Source of the DNA: Caulobacteraceae bacterium
GTDB taxonomy: Bacteria; Pseudomonadota; Alphaproteobacteria; Caulobacterales; Caulobacteraceae
Direction of reading: 5' to 3'
Assembly (NCBI GenBank): GCA_947475845.1
Contig: CANJMO010000023.1
Span: forward strand, 1 to 35,856
Length of the DNA stretch: 35,856 nucleotides
The notes below the pieces were generated by a model that was not told the DNA's origin, ran no database searches, and worked only from the letters and a program-made list of their open reading frames with translations. This document shows positions 12,094-20,315 of this stretch, piece after piece (the stretch's first letter is position 1; the number at the start of each line of letters is the position of its first letter). The position numbers and the translations under genes are program-made.

Positions 12094-12152
12094 CGCCTTG
12101 GCAATCGGGGCCGGTCCCGGTAAAAGCCGCCACCCACCAGAGTCCTCCGGAC

Positions 12153-12228
12153 GCCGCTTTAGCTCAGCTGGTAGAGCACCTCATTCGTAATGAGGGGGTC
12201 ACAGGTTCGAGTCCTGTAAGCGGCACCA
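12153..12228 (+). tRNA. tRNA-Thr (anticodon CGT)
   Basis: Complete cloverleaf of 76 nt with encoded CCA. The acceptor GCCGCTT (12153-12159) pairs with AAGCGGC (12218-12224); the discriminator is A12225 and CCA is 12226-12228. The D-arm contains GCTCAGCTGGTAGAGC, the anticodon stem CCTCA/TGAGG encloses TTCGTAA with anticodon CGT (12186-12188, reads ACG), and the T-arm has GGTTCGAGTCC. Its 3' end is the integration point of the accessory region that follows. Confidence 0.97.
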
Positions 12229-12230
12229 TC
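12206..12230 (+). repeat. attL-like site: 3' end of tRNA-Thr, copy 1
   Basis: The T-loop to CCA end of the tRNA plus two more bases is repeated in the same orientation at 19261-19284. Seventeen bases (TTCGAGTCCTGTAAGCG) match exactly; one G is then missing in the distal copy, and CACCATC matches again. Duplication of a tRNA 3' end is the usual scar of tyrosine-recombinase integration. Confidence 0.75.
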
Positions 12231-12482
12231 TTCCTCCAAATAAAACAAATATTTGCGAGGCGATGCCTAGGCGTAACGGTTCGGGGAATTTTCTTCCGAT
12301 ACCATATCGATACCTGGCGGGCGAAACTCAGTCGCCGTATCTGAGCCGAAATGGTTACCCCCACCCCCTATCGACCCCGACGGGGGGCTACCCGCATATC
12401 TACATATCGGCCTTACAAATGGGCTGCCGTTTTTGGATGTTGAGTTTCGCGAATGCCCGGCGGGCCTTGCCGCCCAGGCTGC
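12231..12482. other. Gene-free stretch after tRNA-Thr
   Basis: About 250 bp without a credible gene. The first ~70 bp are notably AT-richer than the surroundings (runs such as CAAATAAAACAAATATTT), unlike the host genes. No integrase reading frame is present next to the tRNA. I see it as eroded island DNA. Confidence 0.5.
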
Positions 12483-12678
12483 CTAACGCGCCACGGCCCC
12501 GTTGAGCATCGCTGCGAGCCTCAGCCCGTGCTTGCGGCATAAGTCCGCCACCGGCACGCCCGGCTCCTGCTCGCGCAGGATCGCGATGATCTGCTCTTCC
12601 GTGAACCTTGATCGTTTCATTCGTCCGTCCCTTACTTGTGGCGGACCTAATTATTTCTGGAGGAGTTTCAGGGGGTCA
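12483..12678 (-). mobile_element. IS3-family insertion sequence remnant (5' end with truncated orfA)
   Basis: On the minus strand a 45-codon frame begins at ATG 12620 and encodes MKRSRFTEEQIIAILREQE followed by PGVPVADLCRKHGL, the standard N-terminus of OrfA (HTH_Tnp_1) in IS3/IS407-type elements. After KHGL the sequence leaves the family and stops at 12483, so roughly two thirds of orfA and all of orfB are missing. Upstream, GTAAGGGACGGACGA (12621-12635) is a normal leader, and the element probably ends near TGACCCCCTGAAAC (reverse of 12665-12678). It is a dead remnant. It abuts a broken membrane-protein gene to the right. Confidence 0.82.
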
Positions 12679-12688
12679 CGTCACCGGC
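12671..12688 (+). repeat. 18-bp inverted repeat, left copy
   Basis: GGGGGTCACGTCACCGGC is found here on the plus strand and, exactly, on the minus strand at 18642-18659. The two copies face each other and enclose 5.99 kb that contains the whole receptor operon. Part of this copy overlaps the inferred IS edge and the start of the PepSY-like fragment. Confidence 0.8.
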
Positions 12689-12826
12689 GTCGGCGGCCTG
12701 CCCTACCGGGTGCCGGTCAGCGCCCTCGGTCTGATGACGGCGATTCTATCGGCCACCGGCGTGATCCTGTTCACTCGCCGCCAGATCAGGAAGCTGCTCT
12801 CGCCGGCGCTACTGCGCCGCCGCTAA
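12679..12826 (+). pseudogene. C-terminal fragment of a PepSY/PiuB-like membrane protein
   Basis: An open frame continues from the IS edge to TAA at 12826 and encodes GLPYRVPVSALGLMTAILSATGVILF followed by TRRQIRK. This matches the last transmembrane helix and tail of PepSY-associated TM proteins (PiuB-like), which usually end GLPxRxxxxxxGLxxAxLSxTGVxxxxRR. No start codon belonging to it remains; the IS remnant occupies its 5' side. PiuB-type proteins normally accompany TonB siderophore receptors and a PiuC-type oxygenase, which fits the neighbours. Its stop overlaps the stop of the convergent oxygenase gene by two bases. Family assignment rests on about 45 residues. Confidence 0.55.
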
Positions 12827-13428
12827 CGCAACGGCGGGCCTGAAACCCAGATGGCCATGGTGCGCCGAACGCCCTTGGTGACGGGCGTGACGCGATGCAG
12901 CACATAGGATGGAAAGGCCACGATCCTGCCCAGCGGCATGGCGACGGTCGTCGGCTGGTGATCGTAGAACAGCTGCAGCTCTCCGCCTTCGTATTCGGAC
13001 GGGTCGCTCAACGGCACCACCAGGCTCAGCTTTCGGTTGGCTAGGCGGCCGGCGCCGATATCCACGTGCCAGCCATAAAATCCGCTGTCGGTCGCCCGGT
13101 AGGTCGCGATCTGAAACGGCTCTTCGAACCCGCTCAGGTCCATCCGGAAGACCTGTTTGTTGGCGTGCAGCGCGAACTGCGCGATCAGCTCGAACACCGG
13201 CTGCGACTGCTGGTCTTCCTGCAGCCACAGAATGTCGGAGCGGCGGATATGCTCAGATATTGCGGCGGTCGCATCGCTCTTCACGATCGAGCCCCGGTCG
13301 AGCTCGGTTCGGTCGGACAGCGCGTTCAGATAGTCGATCAGCGGCCTCGGGAAGACATTGTCCGCCGTCACCGTACTGGCGCCTGACTGCTCGCCGCGGA
13401 CCGCCGGCCCCTTGCTGTTGTCGGTCAC
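12823..13428 (-). CDS. 2OG-Fe(II) oxygenase, prolyl-4-hydroxylase-like
   Basis: Non-haem iron, 2-oxoglutarate-dependent oxygenase (201 aa). The facial triad is visible as H121-x-D123 (GWHVDIG) and H178 (YVLHRVTP), and the 2OG-binding Arg is R188 or R189 (GVRRTMAIW). PLSDPSEYEGGELQLF is typical of the P4Hc/PKHD group. It lacks a signal peptide. It is related to PiuC-type hydroxylases found beside TonB receptors, but its N-terminal half differs and the substrate is unknown. It is last in the receptor operon, 58 bp after the amidohydrolase gene, with a hairpin in that gap. Confidence 0.85.
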   Translation of the reverse strand: MTDNSKGPAVRGEQSGASTVTADNVFPRPLIDYLNALSDRTELDRGSIVKSDATAAISEHIRRSDILWLQEDQQSQPVFELIAQFALHANKQVFRMDLSGFEEPFQIATYRATDSGFYGWHVDIGAGRLANRKLSLVVPLSDPSEYEGGELQLFYDHQPTTVAMPLGRIVAFPSYVLHRVTPVTKGVRRTMAIWVSGPPLR

Positions 13429-13462
13429 CCTATCGATCCTTAGGCGATCTGGCCGGCCCCGA

Positions 13463-13478
13463 CGGCGTGGTCACGCCG
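13463..13478 (-). other. Intercistronic hairpin, amidohydrolase/oxygenase gap
   Basis: CGGCGTG (13463-13469) and CACGCCG (13472-13478) form a 7-bp inverted repeat around GT. It occupies the 58-bp gap between the two genes and has no following T-run, so it is more likely an mRNA processing or stability element than a terminator. Confidence 0.45.
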
Positions 13479-13486
13479 CCGCCCGC

Positions 13487-14794
13487 TCAGCGCTGAGGCG
13501 GACGCACATAGGGCAGCACCTTCACCGTCTTCAGCAAGGCGCGCTTGTCCACCACGATCGCGCCGCCCTTGGCGACCAGGACGACCGTCGTGAAATTCCA
13601 GGGCCCTTCGAGCGGGTTGCCGGTCAGCATCAGCAGGTCGCCCAGTTTTCCGGGCTGCAGGGTGCCCAGGTCCTTGCCCTTGTCCAGGAAGTCGGCCGAG
13701 TTCTGGCCCATCACCTTGACCAGGTCGATCGGCGACATGACCAGGCTCAGCACCCGGATTTCATGGGCGATGGCGGCCGGCGCGTAATAGGTGGTGTCGG
13801 TGCAGAAGCCGAAATCGACCCCGTTGTCGTAAAGCGTGCGGCCGTTGACCGGTTTGTATCCCGCCTCGCGGCCGCGGCCCTCGCCGTCCAGAACCTGTTC
13901 CGGCCACGGCTTGCCGTCGCGGAAGGTCGGCTTGTTCTCGCGGTTATAGACGTCGAACACCGGCGCGCCGAACCCGGTGCAGGACGACACCCAGGCGCCG
14001 GCGTCGCGCACCTGCTTGGCCTCGGCGTCGGTCAGCCAGCCGAAGTGGGGCGTATGCACTAGCTTCTTGGCCCCCAGTTTCAGGGCGGCGAGCATCGGCG
14101 CCGGTGCGGACGCGTGAACCTGGAAGTTGACGCCGAGTTTCTTGGCCTCGTCGATGCCGGCGGCGAGGTTGCGGCTCTCCTGCTCGGTCGGGACGTTCTT
14201 CTGCGGCGGTTCGGTGATCGGATAGTGCACCTCGGCGATGGAATCGGCGCCCTCGGCCACCACCTTGCGCACGGCGGCGCGGACCTCTTCCTCGTTCTTC
14301 AGGTTGGCCGTCGGCACCCGGCCTGACGTGATGATGCGCGGGCCGACGATCTTGCCGCTCTCGACCATCGCCTTCAGCGCGCGCACGCCTTCATCGTTGT
14401 CGCCGCCGGACTGGACGGTGGTGACCCCCGCCTCGAGCAGTTCGCGCATTCGGGTCGCCGCCTGATCCTTGAGGAAGGCGGCGGGCGGGCCTTGGATCAG
14501 ATGGCGGTGGTCGTCGATGTAGCCCGCGATCAGCGTCATCCCTGCGCCGTCGACGCGGTTGGGCCCCTTCAGCTTGGCCGCCGACGCCGGCGGCGGACCG
14601 GCCGCAACCGAAGCGATGCGGCCGTCCTTGACCACGATCGAGCCCTTGTCGATCACCGTCCCGTCACCGACGATGATGCGCGCGTTGGCGACCACCAGAT
14701 TCTGCGCCAGCGCCGGCGCGGCCGCCGTCGAGGCGCCCAGCATGGACGCGGCCAACAGGGCGCGGCGGATAAATGACGCTGCGGATGTTCTCAT
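13487..14794 (-). CDS. Secreted amidohydrolase, imidazolonepropionase-like
   Basis: Metal-dependent hydrolase of the amidohydrolase superfamily (435 aa). A signal peptide precedes about residue 31 (AAPALAQN). The beta-sandwich segment VVKDGRIASVAAG is followed by the first metal motif D95-H96-R-H98 (YIDDHRHLIQG). Later His residues appear in SIAEVHYPI, FQVHASAP and LVHTPHFGWL, and an Asp in GFCTDTTYYAP fits the final metal ligand. C-terminal LGTLQPGKLGDLLML and GNPLEG are family hallmarks. Related enzymes act on dipeptides, cyclic amides or lactones; the substrate here is unknown. It follows the unnamed 271-aa gene by 88 bp, with a 10-bp-stem hairpin between. Confidence 0.88.
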   Translation of the reverse strand: MRTSAASFIRRALLAASMLGASTAAAPALAQNLVVANARIIVGDGTVIDKGSIVVKDGRIASVAAGPPPASAAKLKGPNRVDGAGMTLIAGYIDDHRHLIQGPPAAFLKDQAATRMRELLEAGVTTVQSGGDNDEGVRALKAMVESGKIVGPRIITSGRVPTANLKNEEEVRAAVRKVVAEGADSIAEVHYPITEPPQKNVPTEQESRNLAAGIDEAKKLGVNFQVHASAPAPMLAALKLGAKKLVHTPHFGWLTDAEAKQVRDAGAWVSSCTGFGAPVFDVYNRENKPTFRDGKPWPEQVLDGEGRGREAGYKPVNGRTLYDNGVDFGFCTDTTYYAPAAIAHEIRVLSLVMSPIDLVKVMGQNSADFLDKGKDLGTLQPGKLGDLLMLTGNPLEGPWNFTTVVLVAKGGAIVVDKRALLKTVKVLPYVRPPQR

Positions 14795-14812
14795 CGGAGC
14801 CCTCGGATGTGA

Positions 14813-14845
14813 CCGTCCGGCGTTTGCGGTGTCGCCGCCGGACGG
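14813..14845 (-). other. Intercistronic hairpin, orphan/amidohydrolase gap
   Basis: Perfect 10-bp stem, CCGTCCGGCG (14813-14822) with CGCCGGACGG (14836-14845), and a 13-nt loop. It lies in the 88 bp between the 271-aa protein gene and the amidohydrolase start. No T-run follows on the minus strand. Confidence 0.6.
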
Positions 14846-14882
14846 GCCGGGTTGAAAGTCGCTGGACCGTATCGTGCGGATG

Positions 14883-15698
14883 CTACTGTTCTTTGTCGAT
14901 CGGCTTGCCGTCTCCGCCGAGCGTCAGCGTCTTGCCGCTGGGCGCCACGAGGTTCCGGTTGTTTTCCGAGCAGGCGTAGTCGTAGGCGCGCGTGCCGGCC
15001 GGCAGTTTGCGATAGCGCTTGGTCACGCTCCAAGGCTTGGTGAAGGCCACCGGATCCTCGAGCGTCATGTTCGCTTCCATCGTGTTGGCGTCGACCTTGT
15101 GCAGTCGGGTGACGACATGCAGGGCGTTGGAGTGGATCACCCCGGTGCGGTCGATGATCGTCGAGCCTTCGCCCAGCATGGCGATGGTGTCGAACACCAG
15201 GGTGGCGCCTTCCCAATGGCCGACGGAATCGCCGCTGAAGGTGTTCCAGACGTCGTCTGTCGCCGGATGGGCGCGCCCGTCCGTGTAGATCCGCACGACG
15301 TTGGGTCCGTTCTCCGTTAGGATCCAGGCCTGCTCCGGCCGCACCACGAACTCATAGGTGTCCGGCACGTTGAGCGCCCGCGGGAACCCGGCCGGAACGC
15401 CGCAGAAGGTCAGCGGATCGGGCCAGCGGTCGGCCGCAATCTTCTTGATGTTGGCCTGGTACTTGGCTTCCCATTCGGCGTTGTAAGGGGGGTGTTCGCG
15501 CACATTCGCCACCCCGGCGGCGCCGTTGGCCGGCTCCACCGACGCGCGGTCGAACACCGTGTTGCCGTTCATCTGCCAGACGCCGCTCCAGTCGGGCAGG
15601 GCCGTGTACGGCAGGTTGACCCCCTGGGCGCGGGCGGGAGTCCAAGCCGCGGCGGCCAGAAGCGCGACGGCGGCCAGGGCCGATTTCGATGCAGTCAT
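14883..15698 (-). CDS. Exported protein of unknown function (WSGVW-type)
   Basis: Protein of 271 aa with a signal peptide (AAWTPARAQG, cleavage near residue 25). I do not recognise a named domain. The mature protein starts with PDWSGVWQMNG, then has DPLTFCGVPAGFPRAL, EFVVRPEQAWILTENGPNVV, RIYTDGRAHP, WNTFSGDSVGHWEGATLVFD and, near the end, TKPWSVTKRYRKLPAGTR and DYACSENNR. The many Trp/Tyr residues and repeated beta-type pattern suggest a lipocalin-like or beta-barrel periplasmic protein; that is inference. I recall similar proteins beside TonB receptors and amidohydrolases in Caulobacter and sphingomonads. Two cysteines remain in the mature chain. ATG at 15698 gives the clean signal peptide. 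It sits 86 bp after the receptor gene. Confidence 0.8.
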   Translation of the reverse strand: MTASKSALAAVALLAAAAWTPARAQGVNLPYTALPDWSGVWQMNGNTVFDRASVEPANGAAGVANVREHPPYNAEWEAKYQANIKKIAADRWPDPLTFCGVPAGFPRALNVPDTYEFVVRPEQAWILTENGPNVVRIYTDGRAHPATDDVWNTFSGDSVGHWEGATLVFDTIAMLGEGSTIIDRTGVIHSNALHVVTRLHKVDANTMEANMTLEDPVAFTKPWSVTKRYRKLPAGTRAYDYACSENNRNLVAPSGKTLTLGGDGKPIDKEQ

Positions 15699-15741
15699 CG
15701 GGCGATTACCTTGATTGAAGTCAGTGCTGCAGGGCCGGGTT

Positions 15742-15775
15742 GGGTCCCGGAGCCGTCGAAACGGCGCCGGGACCC
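15742..15775 (-). other. Strong UUCG-loop hairpin between receptor and downstream genes
   Basis: GGGTCCCGG (15742-15750) pairs with CCGGGACCC (15767-15775). After one A/G mismatch, GCCGT (15752-15756) pairs with ACGGC (15761-15765), leaving a four-base loop. In the minus-strand transcript the loop reads UUCG, an extra-stable tetraloop. It lies 9 nt after the receptor stop codon. There is no T-run, so partial attenuation or 3' protection of the receptor message is more likely than full termination. Confidence 0.7.
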
Positions 15776-15784
15776 GCTGTCCGG

Positions 15785-18520
15785 CTAGTAGCGGTAGTTG
15801 ATCTGAACCCCGATCGTCCGGGGTCTGAACGTCGTCTGGCTGATGAACGGCGTGAAGGTGGTGAACACCGCGCAGCTCGGGTCGGAGTTGGGCGTGCACC
15901 CGCCGCGTCCGCCGGTCTTGGACAGCGAATCCTTCGAGGCCGTCAGGTTGTAGACGAAGGCGCTGACGTCGATCTTGTCGTTCACCGAAATGCCCCAGCG
16001 GGCATTGAACAGGTTGGTCGCAGGCAGGTTGCGCGAGTCGGGGATGTAAGCGTTCACCCCCGGGCCGTAGCTGCCGTAGTACGACGACGTGTATTGCCAG
16101 TCGCCTCTCAGGAACATGGGCAGGGACAGGCCGGTGAACCGGTACGTCGCCCCCAGGCTGACCGACAGCGGCGGCACCGGGATGGCGTCGCCCTGGTTGA
16201 TCACCGCCGTCGCCGCTGAGCCGTTGGCCGGCTTCGGCCCCGTCGCCGTCGTGACGAACTTGGCGTCGTCATAGCCCATGGCCAGATCGACCGTCAGGCT
16301 GTCGAAGAAGCGGCCTTGGACCTGCAGGTCGGCGCCCTGGCTGCGCGCCTTGCCGGCGTTCATGATGAAGTTCGGTCCGCAGCCCGGGATGGTCACGGCC
16401 AGTTGGACGTCGCTCCAATCGATGCGGTAGGCGCTGGCGTTGATCTGGAAGGTGTCGGCCACACGGAATTTGCCGCCGACTTCGTAGCTCCACACCGAGT
16501 CCGAGTTGTAGGTGGCCGGCGCGTCGGCGACGGTCAGGCCCACAAGCGCCAGGCCCTGGCCGCAGATGGCCACGGGCAAGGGCACGTTGACGCCGCCGGC
16601 GCGATAGCCCTTGGCGGCGCTGAAGTAGACCATCTTGCGGTCGGCGATCTCGTATTCGAGACCGAACTTCGGGGTCAGAGGCGTGCTCTTGGTCCGGCCC
16701 ACGGTGATGCCGGTGTTGGCCACCGTCGGGACGTTCCAGCCGGACGCCGGGCCGTCGAAGACCTGGGTGTAGTTCAGGTCGTTGGACGAATAGCGCAGGC
16801 CCAGGTTGATCTTCAGCTTGGGCAGGACCCAGTAATTGACCTCGCCGAACCCGGCCAGTTCCTTCTCCCGCAGCTGCTGGTCACGCTCGGTGGTGACGTT
16901 GCCGGGCAGGGGCGGCAGGCCGACAAAGCACGCGCCCGCAGAATCCAGGAACGGCTGATTGGCGGCCAGGCCGAGGCTGGCGCAGGTCTGGCCCGCCGCC
17001 AGGGCGAAGCGCTGCGAATACCGCTGAATGGCCGGGATGTTATAAAGCAGCTGGGAGATCTGGTTGATGTCTTCCGGCAGCTGGTAGAACGTGTGGTTGT
17101 GGATGTCGGAATAGTAGACGCCCGCAACCCAGCTCAATGGCTTGGGATCGCCCGACGACGTCAGGCGGATTTCCTGGGTCCAGCCATCGCGGCGGTTGCG
17201 CGACTTGAAGGCGCCGGCATAGTCCGGGAACGGGCTGAACAGGGTCGAGCCGGTGGCGATGTTGGCGGCGCCTGCCGAGAACGCGACCGTGGAGCCGGGC
17301 GTATAGTAGTTGCCGGTCTTGTCGACGAAGCCGGAGACGGCCGAGACCTGATTCTGCTCCCAGTTGATGCTGTTTTCTTGGTCGTTGATGTTCGACGTGA
17401 TCGCCTTGATGTTCATGAACGGCAGATCGTAGTCGATCGTCAGGCTCGGGGCCGTGAACCGCGACGACGCCGGGTTGTTGGCCATCGTCGAGTTGTTCGA
17501 CAGGATCTGGAACGGCTTGAAGTTGAACGGTCCATAGGTCTGCGACGGACGAATGTACTGGTTCACGCCGGTGCAGACGTTGGGGGCGATCGAGCTGCTG
17601 GTGCTGTACAGGGTCGTCGCGGACTTGTTGGTGATGCAGTAGGACGGCGTGGTCAGGGTGCGGTTGACCGGCAGGGTGTACGCCGAGCTGACTTCGCCCG
17701 CCCGGTTGCTGGTGGTGAAGTACGCGAAGTTGACCTTCAGCTTGTCGGTGACGGCCCACTGCAGAGCAAAGCGATAGGAGTCGATCTTGCTCCAGTTGGC
17801 GTCCTTGAACCGGACCTGGCTGGGGTTGTAGGGGTTGACCTCGTCGATGTAGCCGCCGTTGTAGCGGGTGTAGATCGTGCCACGGAAGCCGAGCTTGTCC
17901 TTGATGATCGGGCCGCCCGCGGCGATGCCGAACTCAGCGCTTGGGCTGCCATATTCCGTGCTCGACGCTTCCGTGCGCGCCGAGACGGAGTAGGTCGTCA
18001 GGCTCGGCTGGGGCGAGATGAAGCGGACCGTGCCGCCTTCGGAAGACCCGCCGAACAGCGTGCCCTGCGGGCCGCGCAGCACTTCCACGCGATCCAGGTC
18101 GAACAGCGGGGGCGCCGGGGTGCCGTTGTTCTGCGAAACCCCGTTGGTGGCGCGCTTTTGCAGGGGAATATCGTCAAGGTAGACGCCCGTGGTGGCGGCC
18201 GTCGCGCCGGTGCCGACGATGCCGCGCAGCGAGAAGGTGGCGACACCAGCCGTCACGCCGCTGATCGAGAGGGCGGGAACCGTGCGTTGCAGGTCGCCGA
18301 CGTTCTTGATGCCTTGCTCGTCCAGGGTTTTTTGGGTGACGGCCGCGATGCTGAGCGCGACCCTGTTGGCCGAGCTGGCTTGCCTGGTCGCGGTGACGAC
18401 CACGTCGTCGAGCTGAACCGCGGCGCCGGCCGGCGCCTGGGCGAAGGCGGGAAAAGCCAACATCCCCGAGCCCAAGACGCTCGAAACCATAAGCAATTTG
18501 AACTTGTCGTTCCTCATCAT
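15785..18520 (-). CDS. TonB-dependent outer-membrane receptor
   Basis: Outer-membrane active transporter (911 aa). A signal peptide ends near residue 28 (FPAFAQAP). A TonB-box-like region LDDVVVTATRQ is followed by a plug domain with KNVGDLQRTVPALSISG, VYLDDIPL and RVEVLRGPQGTLFGGSSEGGTV. The rest forms a 22-stranded barrel with typical segments (QEIRLTSSGD, LGLRYSSNDLNY, YFSAAKGYRAGGVNVPL) and ends in an aromatic strand IGVQINYRY. No N-terminal signalling (STN) domain is present. Shine-Dalgarno-like GAGGGGG precedes ATGATG. The substrate is not known; co-transcribed hydrolase and oxygenase genes hint at a specific organic compound or siderophore. It is the first gene of the island operon. 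Confidence 0.95.
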   Translation of the reverse strand: MMRNDKFKLLMVSSVLGSGMLAFPAFAQAPAGAAVQLDDVVVTATRQASSANRVALSIAAVTQKTLDEQGIKNVGDLQRTVPALSISGVTAGVATFSLRGIVGTGATAATTGVYLDDIPLQKRATNGVSQNNGTPAPPLFDLDRVEVLRGPQGTLFGGSSEGGTVRFISPQPSLTTYSVSARTEASSTEYGSPSAEFGIAAGGPIIKDKLGFRGTIYTRYNGGYIDEVNPYNPSQVRFKDANWSKIDSYRFALQWAVTDKLKVNFAYFTTSNRAGEVSSAYTLPVNRTLTTPSYCITNKSATTLYSTSSSIAPNVCTGVNQYIRPSQTYGPFNFKPFQILSNNSTMANNPASSRFTAPSLTIDYDLPFMNIKAITSNINDQENSINWEQNQVSAVSGFVDKTGNYYTPGSTVAFSAGAANIATGSTLFSPFPDYAGAFKSRNRRDGWTQEIRLTSSGDPKPLSWVAGVYYSDIHNHTFYQLPEDINQISQLLYNIPAIQRYSQRFALAAGQTCASLGLAANQPFLDSAGACFVGLPPLPGNVTTERDQQLREKELAGFGEVNYWVLPKLKINLGLRYSSNDLNYTQVFDGPASGWNVPTVANTGITVGRTKSTPLTPKFGLEYEIADRKMVYFSAAKGYRAGGVNVPLPVAICGQGLALVGLTVADAPATYNSDSVWSYEVGGKFRVADTFQINASAYRIDWSDVQLAVTIPGCGPNFIMNAGKARSQGADLQVQGRFFDSLTVDLAMGYDDAKFVTTATGPKPANGSAATAVINQGDAIPVPPLSVSLGATYRFTGLSLPMFLRGDWQYTSSYYGSYGPGVNAYIPDSRNLPATNLFNARWGISVNDKIDVSAFVYNLTASKDSLSKTGGRGGCTPNSDPSCAVFTTFTPFISQTTFRPRTIGVQINYRY

Positions 18521-18572
18521 GTCCCCCTCGGGATAGAAAGCTGGCGGACGTCGTTGACGTCACCGAAGCGTA

Positions 18573-18602
18573 ATTATCCCAAATGGCGCAACTCGGGCGC
18601 AA
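18573..18602 (-). promoter_or_regulatory. Candidate sigma70-type promoter of the receptor operon
   Basis: Read on the minus strand, TTGCGC (18602-18597) and GATAAT (18578-18573) are 18 bp apart, about 52 bp before the receptor ATG. Two copies of GTTGCGCC (18596-18603 and 18585-18592) lie 11 bp apart across the -35/spacer region, a possible regulator site one helical turn apart. A palindrome TGACGTCA is at 18555-18562. Confidence 0.4.
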
Positions 18603-18641
18603 CCCGCAATAGCAATCTTTGCGGTTCCCGTTTGATTTGCG

Positions 18642-18659
18642 GCCGGTGACGTGACCCCC
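18642..18659 (-). repeat. 18-bp inverted repeat, right copy
   Basis: Exact reverse complement of 12671-12688, facing inward, just upstream of the receptor promoter. The base run GTTTC follows immediately outside (18660-18664); GTTTC also occurs one base outside the left copy (12665-12669). Confidence 0.8.
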
Positions 18660-19260
18660 GTTTCTCATCCAGCCACAACGAGGGTCCTAGGTTGATTTGG
18701 GCCTGGGTTTAGGTTGATGGCTGGGGCTGACAGCGTAAGTGCGGGCTGGACGCCTGTGCTAGGTAGACGGTGCCAGCCTAGGCGACCAGATGCGGGGAAC
18801 TGGTGCGAAAGAAGGCGGTCGGGGGCGGTAGGCCCACCTCTCCACCACTCGCTAGCCGCTGAACCTCTGCGATCTCAGCGATCCGGTTACCAAGACGAGG
18901 CAGGACGAGGCGGTCGCAGACATAGATGAGGAATTGGTCGCCTGAGCGCCTTCCGCTTGCATGACTGTTAAGCCTGCCCAAGGGACCTTTGGCTCGCGCA
19001 GACTGGGTAAAGCAAACCGGTGTCTTAGTGATGCGCGCATGGCAGAGCGCGAGGTCGCCGTTCGACGAACAGCCCAGCTGAAGCGAAGATAGCGCCTGGA
19101 ACCGTTGGCTGGCCGCTCCCCGACAGGGTTCGTGCCGTATTCCGGAAGGCAGTAGTAGACAAAAATGGTGGGCCAGACTGGAGCTTGGGGGTCACATTGG
19201 GGGTCACGCGCCCTGTTTCTTGGAAAGAAATAACTACAATTCAAGCGCTTAAGAAGAAAT
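18660..19260. other. Gene-free distal end of island with repeated GGGGGTCAC motifs
   Basis: No credible gene in about 600 bp; open frames are short and unlike known proteins. GGGGGTCAC occurs at 19187-19195 and 19199-19207, 12 bp apart and about 55-75 bp inside the distal tRNA repeat, where arm-type integrase sites would be expected. The last 50 bp before the repeat are AT-rich (TTCTTGGAAAGAAATAACTA). An integrase gene is not present. Confidence 0.5.
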
Positions 19261-19284
19261 TTCGAGTCCTGTAAGCGCACCATC
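19261..19284 (+). repeat. attR-like site: duplicated 3' end of tRNA-Thr
   Basis: Second copy of the tRNA-Thr 3' end (see 12206-12230), same orientation, 7.05 kb away, with one G missing from GCGGC. It marks the distal boundary of the accessory region; ordinary dense genes resume at 19323. Confidence 0.75.
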
Positions 19285-19322
19285 CGGCTTCGCTCCTGCT
19301 GAGCTTCGCAGGACACTCGCCC

Positions 19323-20315
19323 CTACTCACACATCTTGAAGCTCGACTGCCGGCAGTCGTCGGCCTGGGCCGTCGCGGTCTGCAACTGCTCCGCCGTCAG
19401 GGCGGAGGCTAGCAGGTCGCGGTTGAGCACGGCCTGGTCGCGGACGCGGGCCTCGGTCGCCTCGGTGGCGGCGAGGTCGAACCATTTGCGCGCCTGCACA
19501 TAGTCCTGCGCCATGCCCTGGCCGCCGGCGTAGAGCACCGCGAGATTGAACTGCGCCGGGGCGTGGCCCTGCTGCGCCGCCTTGCGATACCACTGCGCCG
19601 CCGCGCCGTAGTCCTGCGCCACGCCCTGACCTCCCTCGTACATCAGGGCGAGATTGTGCTGGGCCAGGATATTGCCCTGATCGGCCGCCTTGCGCATCCA
19701 CCCGGCGGCCGCGGCCATGTCGCGCGGCATGCCCCGGGCGCGGATATAGTAGACGCCGAGGTTGAACTGGGCGTCGGGATTGCCCTGTTCGGCGGCCTTA
19801 CGATACCAGCTCGCCGCCAGCACATCGTCCTGCGACACGCCCAGGCCGTGATCGTACATGCCCGCGAGATTGAACTGGGCCAGGGCGTTGCCCTGTTCGG
19901 CCGCCTTGCGGAAGAGGTCGGCCGAGACCGCGAAACTTTGCGGCGCGCCCTGCCCCCGCCCGACCAGCACCGCCAGATTGAACAGCGCTTCGATATGGCC
20001 CTGGTCGGCGGCCTTGCGATACCAGCCGACGGCCACGGCATAGTCCTGGGCCACCCCCAGGCCGCCGTCGTAGATCACCCCGAGACCGAACTGCGCGCGG
20101 GCATTGCCCTGCCCCGCCAAAGGCCGCCAAAGGCGCATGGCGGTGGCGAAGTCCTTCTGCCCGAAGGCGGTAACGCCTTGCTCATAGGCGGCGGCGGCCG
20201 CGGTCAATCCAGGCTTGGGGGTAAGCTTCCTCGGCGCGACGGCGGCGGACGCCGGGCCAAACGCCAAGGCCATGACGGCAAGACAGATCGGCAGGCGGAT
20301 CCGGTTCATGGCCAT
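19323..20315 (-). CDS. Exported Sel1-repeat (SLR/TPR-like) protein
   Basis: Solenoid protein of 330 aa with an N-terminal signal peptide (MALAFGPASAAVAP). Six Sel1-like repeats of about 36 residues follow from about residue 72, each of the type AQFNLGxxYxxGxGVxxDxxxAxxWYRKAAEQGN; the third-to-fifth are the most regular. The repeats give a matching periodicity in the DNA. A C-terminal tail with two Cys (DDCRQSSFKMCE) could form a disulfide. Such proteins usually act as periplasmic adaptors. The start is ATG 20315; ATG 20309 is possible. It lies just outside the distal att copy and is divergent from the next gene. Confidence 0.9.
   Translation of the reverse strand: MAMNRIRLPICLAVMALAFGPASAAVAPRKLTPKPGLTAAAAAYEQGVTAFGQKDFATAMRLWRPLAGQGNARAQFGLGVIYDGGLGVAQDYAVAVGWYRKAADQGHIEALFNLAVLVGRGQGAPQSFAVSADLFRKAAEQGNALAQFNLAGMYDHGLGVSQDDVLAASWYRKAAEQGNPDAQFNLGVYYIRARGMPRDMAAAAGWMRKAADQGNILAQHNLALMYEGGQGVAQDYGAAAQWYRKAAQQGHAPAQFNLAVLYAGGQGMAQDYVQARKWFDLAATEATEARVRDQAVLNRDLLASALTAEQLQTATAQADDCRQSSFKMCE

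Follow-up and report, generated by a model that had tools for sequence, protein, structure and literature searches.

A probable remnant of a tyrosine-integrase island, without its integrase, at the 3′ end of tRNA-Thr(CGT) in a Caulobacteraceae genome

The closest described systems are the tRNA-gene islands of the Islander paper (PMC4383910), which states that a candidate must have an integrase reading frame, that candidates without one are rejected, and that displaced tRNA fragments can carry a deletion '3 bp upstream of the discriminator'. Here we describe a locus that resembles these islands in a 35,856-nucleotide stretch of DNA from a Caulobacteraceae bacterium (assembly GCA_947475845.1, contig CANJMO010000023.1, positions 1 to 35,856; hereafter, the window). 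Positions 12229-19284 of the window, which lie between the 3′ end of a tRNA-Thr(CGT) gene and the far end of a displaced copy of that 3′ end, are very probably the remnant of an island that a tyrosine integrase inserted at the tRNA, a fossil of a kind that is well known. An earlier note on this DNA had already read it as a tRNA-targeted tyrosine-recombinase island, and that reading was right in substance, as judged by the uniqueness of the repeat, the different DNA found between the same flanks in a sister genome, the target of an integrase clade and a missing G that the window shares with islands in relatives. Two of its parts are amended here: the base missing from the displaced copy is a recurrent and already described feature rather than random decay, and the operon for a TonB-dependent receptor that fills much of the island may be a later passenger.

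The tRNA-Thr(CGT) gene is the sole tRNA gene that ARAGORN found in the window. Its final 23 nucleotides (nt) together with the two bases that follow (25 nt in all) reappear as 24 nt on the same strand about 7.0 kb away, and the two copies stand as the left and right attachment-site repeats (attL and attR) of the element:

12153..12228, + strand: tRNA-Thr(CGT), intact (ARAGORN), the target gene, on the attL side
12206..12230, + strand: attL repeat, the tRNA 3′ end plus two bases
19261..19284, + strand: attR repeat, the displaced tRNA 3′ end, one acceptor-stem G short

Alignment of the tRNA tail with the distal copy gave a score of 20.2, compared with 10.2 for the runner-up place in 17.7 kb and with 14.0 for the best tail score in 200 first-order random sequences of ~7.1 kb each. 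A search for the 17-nt core of the repeat, allowing up to two mismatches, returned the two repeat copies and no other site in the genome's own assembly (2.65 Mb in 101 contigs). The alignment and the 17-mer search thus confirmed the claim that the tRNA 3′ end recurs with one base missing, and the repeat did not prove common elsewhere in the genome, a result that the earlier note had named beforehand as refuting. The tail repeat is real and is not a dispersed element. That it could nevertheless be a chance match or a dispersed repeat, with no island at all, is suggested by its length of only 24 nt and by a left arm that is not homologous to the arms of relatives' islands; against the score, the two-site search and the finding, detailed below, that islands at the same tRNA end in the G-lacking form in two other genomes (G124 and G117), this explanation is barely credible.

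A sister genome of the same genus (G002) retains the genes on both sides of the locus. Before the tRNA stand hemC and hemD, with 90% and 65% protein identity, respectively, and on the far side stand a gene for a Sel1-repeat protein (58%) and further reading frames beyond it (51-91%). These are the flanks that the earlier note had given (hemCD before and Sel1 after), and they were borne out by Pfam matches for hemD (PF02602) and Sel1 (PF08238) and, for hemC, by its translation, read by eye, and by synteny. The middle of G002 differs from that of the window. The same tRNA is followed immediately by an integrase (domains Arm-DNA-bind_3 and Phage_int_M), which stops short within its catalytic part and leads into a gene whose product is 30% identical to the window protein encoded at 14883-15698, and there the contig ends. 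On another G002 contig, Sel1 comes after a TonB receptor and two proteins related to that of 14883-15698, all three encoded on the other strand; in the window, by contrast, receptor and Sel1 are on one strand. By this comparison, for which one sister is the basis, the locus is variable between fixed flanks, as an integration site would be.

The earlier note had held that a gene order conserved across the family between the tRNA and Sel1 would tell against an island, and G002, with its different middle between syntenic flanks, does not show such conservation. Conserved gene order was rejected as an explanation on the evidence of G002 and of 38 stretches downstream of tRNA-Thr(CGT) from other genera (40 were compared, some of them short, and two had no tRNA). 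The Sel1-side flank was found in none of the 38, which gave weak single-gene matches only. We also considered Sel1 as part of the cargo, given that in three places (L057, in G001:C464; L058, in the genome's own contig C16; and L056, in G002:C154) Sel1-repeat genes stand close to genes for TonB receptors or for proteins related to that of 14883-15698. Because the DNA beyond Sel1 is syntenic in G002, this idea was set aside and Sel1 was treated as flank.

The conserved flanks raise a further possibility, which is that the variable DNA was swapped ready-made by homologous recombination through them and that no site-specific event took place in this lineage. Whole islands can be exchanged in this way, and the window has no integrase of its own. 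The distal tRNA fragment nonetheless marks a past site-specific integration, so that such an exchange could only have moved a finished island, and we regard it as improbable.

Returning to site-specific insertion at the tRNA, we found that 44 of the 299 family genomes have an integrase related to that of G002 at E 1e-30 and ran ARAGORN on 30 integrase loci, a part of all matches. Among the matches listed, the four best by score (G002, 100%; G236, 82%; G160, 71%; and G124, 65%) all lie directly behind tRNA-Thr(CGT), and none of the other 26 listed loci (54% or less) does; these loci contain tRNA-Leu (16), tRNA-Phe (3), tRNA-Lys (2), tRNA-Thr(TGT) (2) or no tRNA (3). The integrases of G236 and G124 have all three domains (Arm-DNA-bind_3, Phage_int_M and Phage_integrase), and these two genomes supply the intact, integrase-bearing relatives for which the earlier note had advised looking. 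On the basis of this domain make-up, we take the three-domain integrases at tRNA-Thr(CGT) to be of the P4 type. The reading frame in G160 is short (321 amino acids), and G117, outside the 30 loci, has an integrase relic with stop codons behind tRNA-Thr(CGT), 55-58% over about 110 residues. The insertion in the window would have been made by an integrase of this clade.

More distant integrases with the same domain make-up occur in G064 and G199, at the far end of insertions behind tRNA-Thr(CGT), and the tail copies of these insertions are longer. The same two genomes are the ones in which a tail copy within 3 edits was found behind the relatives' tRNA-Thr(CGT) (2 of 38 stretches; the tail copy of G124 lay beyond the stretch scanned), indicating that such a copy is not normally present behind this tRNA. 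A separate locus in G132 (L218, in G132:C1, around 9386) has a lone tRNA-Thr-type 3′ end for which no tRNA gene was found, and the integrase behind it, also outside the 30 loci, is frameshifted and 70% over 108 residues.

In the window itself, frames of 30 or more codons gave no hit at E 1e-3 to a hidden Markov model (HMM) built from 30 family integrases, in keeping with the earlier claim that the island has no integrase. An ATG near 12350 was considered as an integrase start cut by an insertion sequence (IS) and was dropped, as it showed no similarity. The genome has two Phage_integrase matches at E 0.001, both Xer-like: one, nearest to XerD, passes the NCBIfam subfamily model for tyrosine recombinases (NF001399), the other is closest to XerC, and both fall just under the XerD and XerC equivalog cut-offs. 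Because the assembly has no phage-type integrase, the island should be immobile today unless one is supplied in trans, and loss of the integrase would have fixed it in place.

A second line of evidence that links the window to this clade is the missing base. Where the tRNA reads AAGCGGC-A-CCA, the fragment reads AAGCGC-A-CCA, so that the base lost is G70 or G71, a position that fits the deletion about 3 bp upstream of the discriminator described for Islander fragments. The G missing in the window is also absent from the distal tails of G124 (19.6 kb behind the tRNA) and G117 (17.2 kb). Perfect matches to GAGTCNNNTAAGCGCACCA number three in the 299 genomes, namely those in the window, G124 and G117, and allowing one mismatch added three more hits, compared with five for a reversed control pattern. 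G236 has a similar site at 10.2 kb, which by score is not above background. The tRNA and the distal tail of G117 are unlike at one acceptor base, and acceptor stems vary within the family.

To place this gap among related sites, we aligned tails in 31 stretches, comprising the window and 30 stretches from relatives chosen among the integrase matches, of which three had no tRNA at the integrase. A tail was counted if it scored at least 16 and reached CCA, a limit that was chosen after the scores had been seen and that left G236 among the uncounted. Tails were counted in 14 of the 28 stretches, 13 of them in relatives. One or two bases were missing at the same place in 6 of these 13 tails and none in the other 7, with the gap present in 2 of 2 tails at Thr(CGT), 3 of 4 at Leu(CAG), 1 of 3 at Phe and 0 of 4 at Leu(CAA). 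None of the 14 tails showed any other insertion or deletion over the 16-25 nt aligned. Because the gap falls at the same place in 6 of 13 tails and no other insertion or deletion accompanies it, it is, as far as these alignments speak, a recurrent property of these sites and not random decay, though it is far from universal.

How such a gap might arise has reportedly been considered by Williams in 2003 (Traffic at the tmRNA gene), who is said to have suggested that a P4-subfamily integrase at ssrA promotes routine damage to its attachment site, possibly as an adaptation; that work is said to have concerned ssrA, and the target here is tRNA-Thr(CGT). A speculative extension, which we consider rather unlikely to hold in full, is that the one-base loss would be made by the integrase on insertion, or be built into attP, and would lock the displaced tail, leaving the restored tRNA as the sole good target. 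The loss recurs at three tRNA types in this family, and a damaged tail could then serve as a fossil mark for assigning integrase-less islands to an integrase clade.

The DNA between the two repeats, and the first gene beyond them, comprises the following features:

12231..12357: low-GC left arm, the 127 bp behind the tRNA (guanine-plus-cytosine content, GC, 0.48)
12358..12686, − strand: IS3-type remnant, 329 bp as aligned to its copies
12483-12620, − strand: transposase start within the IS3-type remnant (HTH_Tnp_1, E 1.9e-10)
12686..12826, + strand: 3′ end of a broken PepSY_TM-like gene (PepSY_TM, E 0.0027, a weak match below the Pfam cut-off)
12823..13428, − strand: 2OG-Fe(II) oxygenase, PKHD-type (PF13640; NCBIfam matches below cut-off)
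13487..14794, − strand: amidohydrolase (PF01979)
14883..15698, − strand: protein with no Pfam match (28-34% identical to its relatives in the G002 insert)
15785..18520, − strand: TonB-dependent receptor (PF00593 and PF07715)
18647..18721, + strand: second IS copy, end only, with the same terminal TGACGTGACCCCC as the first copy
19323..20315, − strand: Sel1-repeat protein, treated as flanking the island (PF08238; its relative in G002 is the 58% match given above)

The transposon remnant, broken gene and TonB-receptor operon that the earlier note had placed between the copies are thus matched by HTH_Tnp_1, by a weak PepSY_TM hit and by the receptor domains. The left arm, with its GC of 0.48 compared with 0.68-0.70 in the flanks, occupies the position where relatives have the integrase leader. 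From the second IS end to the distal tail there is DNA without a recognised gene, and the open reading frame at 18852-19316, which overlaps the distal tail, has no Pfam match at E 0.01.

The terminal TGACGTGACCCCC of the genome's multicopy IS DNA is present at both borders of the operon; in the left remnant the IS terminus lies at about 12683. Both IS bodies face away from the operon, and CCGG adjoins both. Pieces of the 329-bp remnant were found on eight other contigs of the genome, one of which has a full-length copy that is 94% identical. The remnant and this copy (window 12358-12686 and contig C16:36711-37040) represent the same IS3 derivative of 329-330 bp, a length too short for a whole IS, which suggests a small non-autonomous element. 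Five contigs of the genome (C11, C21, C25, C30 and C74) have IS ends no more than about 270 bp from where the contig stops, and the multicopy IS probably broke the assembly there.

The bracketing of the TonB-receptor operon by IS ends implies that the operon may be a later passenger, and it also admits a different history for the whole locus, in which the operon came as an IS-bounded unit, either a composite transposon or an IS-carrying circle, and the tRNA fragment derives from an older, vanished island, making the 7 kb a nested composite. Such a unit would account for the shared termini at both borders, the outward IS bodies and the CCGG that both abut, a pattern like that left when a one-IS circle recombines into another IS copy, and for the GC of the operon (0.657), which differs from that of the outer parts (0.48 and 0.59). 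Both bracketing copies are broken, however, with only IS ends and a transposase start left, such that no unit can be defined, and because an unrelated IS copy on contig C25 (L088) likewise has CCGG before this terminus, the CCGG may reflect target choice rather than duplication. We consider this history a live possibility that falls somewhat short of an even chance. It does not contradict the attachment-site evidence and would only split the history in two.

Several observations weigh against an island remnant at tRNA-Thr(CGT) as set out above. A distal tail was sought in G002 and nothing scored above 13.2 in the first 9 kb of its Sel1-side contig, through Sel1; in G160 none was found in about 111 kb. 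The assemblies of G002 and of the genome studied here are both in fragments, and a misassembly could account for the point at which the G002 integrase breaks off. The earlier note had proposed a search for an empty site, which yielded different DNA in G002 and no empty site, in a genus that has two other genomes only; the second of these (G001, 79% complete) showed, among the matches listed and the loci examined, no hemD beside its tRNA and no Sel1-side flank. An nhmmer model of six relatives' integrase leaders had no match in window 12101-12720. A search of the other 298 genomes with the TonB receptor gave no match below 1e-200, leaving the cargo untraced. Finally, by the rules given in the Islander paper (PMC4383910), a candidate that, like the window, differs from Islander islands in having no integrase frame would be rejected.

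Even so, we favor the island remnant, and the following history would account for it. A P4-type tyrosine integrase would have inserted the island into the 3′ end of tRNA-Thr(CGT), with recombination between the element's tail copy and the chromosomal one leaving an intact tRNA on the left and the other tail on the right, one G short, a 'damage' known from such sites. IS3-family elements would have entered at a later stage, and the integrase would have been lost along with most of the original content, perhaps by an IS-linked deletion that also cut the PepSY-like gene. The TonB-receptor operon, bracketed by IS ends, would now fill the island. Both this order of events and IS activity as the cause of integrase loss are what we infer from the present arrangement.

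Insertions at the same tRNA in relatives differ widely in content. In G236 (L155, G236:C1), a stretch of about 10 kb that follows tRNA-Thr(CGT) contains, besides the three-domain integrase, another recombinase (Phage_integrase, 2.6e-7), a restriction-methyltransferase of Type IIG (PADLOC, 890 bits) and a large protein that matches Cas3/PbeA weakly; the weak tail at 10.2 kb forms the right border of this stretch. The insertion in G199 (L154, G199:C1:2506000-2522000) is 8.4 kb long and encodes Drt3a and Drt3b reverse transcriptases, with the integrase at the far end. That in G064 (L153, G064:C88) is 15.8 kb long, also with a far-end integrase, and has ParA-like and resolvase-like proteins, named by eye; its tail copy begins in the anticodon arm. 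The 19.6-kb island of G124 (L157 and L204, G124:C1) seems to carry Kdp potassium-transport genes, again named by eye, and similarity to its left arm runs about 40 nt past the distal tail, as if an older island stood there. The anti-phage scan covered ten chosen proteins, of which the two from G064 gave no match. With anti-phage genes at this tRNA in two relatives, namely Type IIG restriction-modification in G236 and Drt3a/Drt3b in G199, the site may be worth mining.

Set against known systems, the locus shares with the islands of the Islander paper (PMC4383910) a tRNA gene, a same-strand downstream fragment of its 3′ end and DNA between them that varies in a sister. Its length (7.0 kb) lies within 2-200 kb, its fragment lies outside any conserved protein domain and, with regard to sporadic occurrence, its content differs in one sister, G002, an empty site not having been found. 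An IS3-family composite transposon has two IS copies, at least one of them complete, flanking the cargo; the window shares with it an operon bracketed by IS ends in direct orientation and differs in having two broken copies and no complete transposase. With damaged-fragment islands, as presented in the Islander paper with reference to Williams (2003), the locus shares the small deletion about 3 bp upstream of the discriminator. Relatives at tRNA-Thr(CGT) carry P4-type integrases, as those islands do: such an integrase stands behind the same tRNA in G002, G236, G160 and G124, and beside attL in the window it is gone. Because the Islander search rejects integrase-less candidates, fossils such as this one are missed by it. 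Here a small known scar in the displaced tail connects an island that has no integrase with the integrase clade to which it probably owes its insertion, and at one tRNA several stages of integrase decay can be read, from three domains, to cut short, to broken by stops, to gone.

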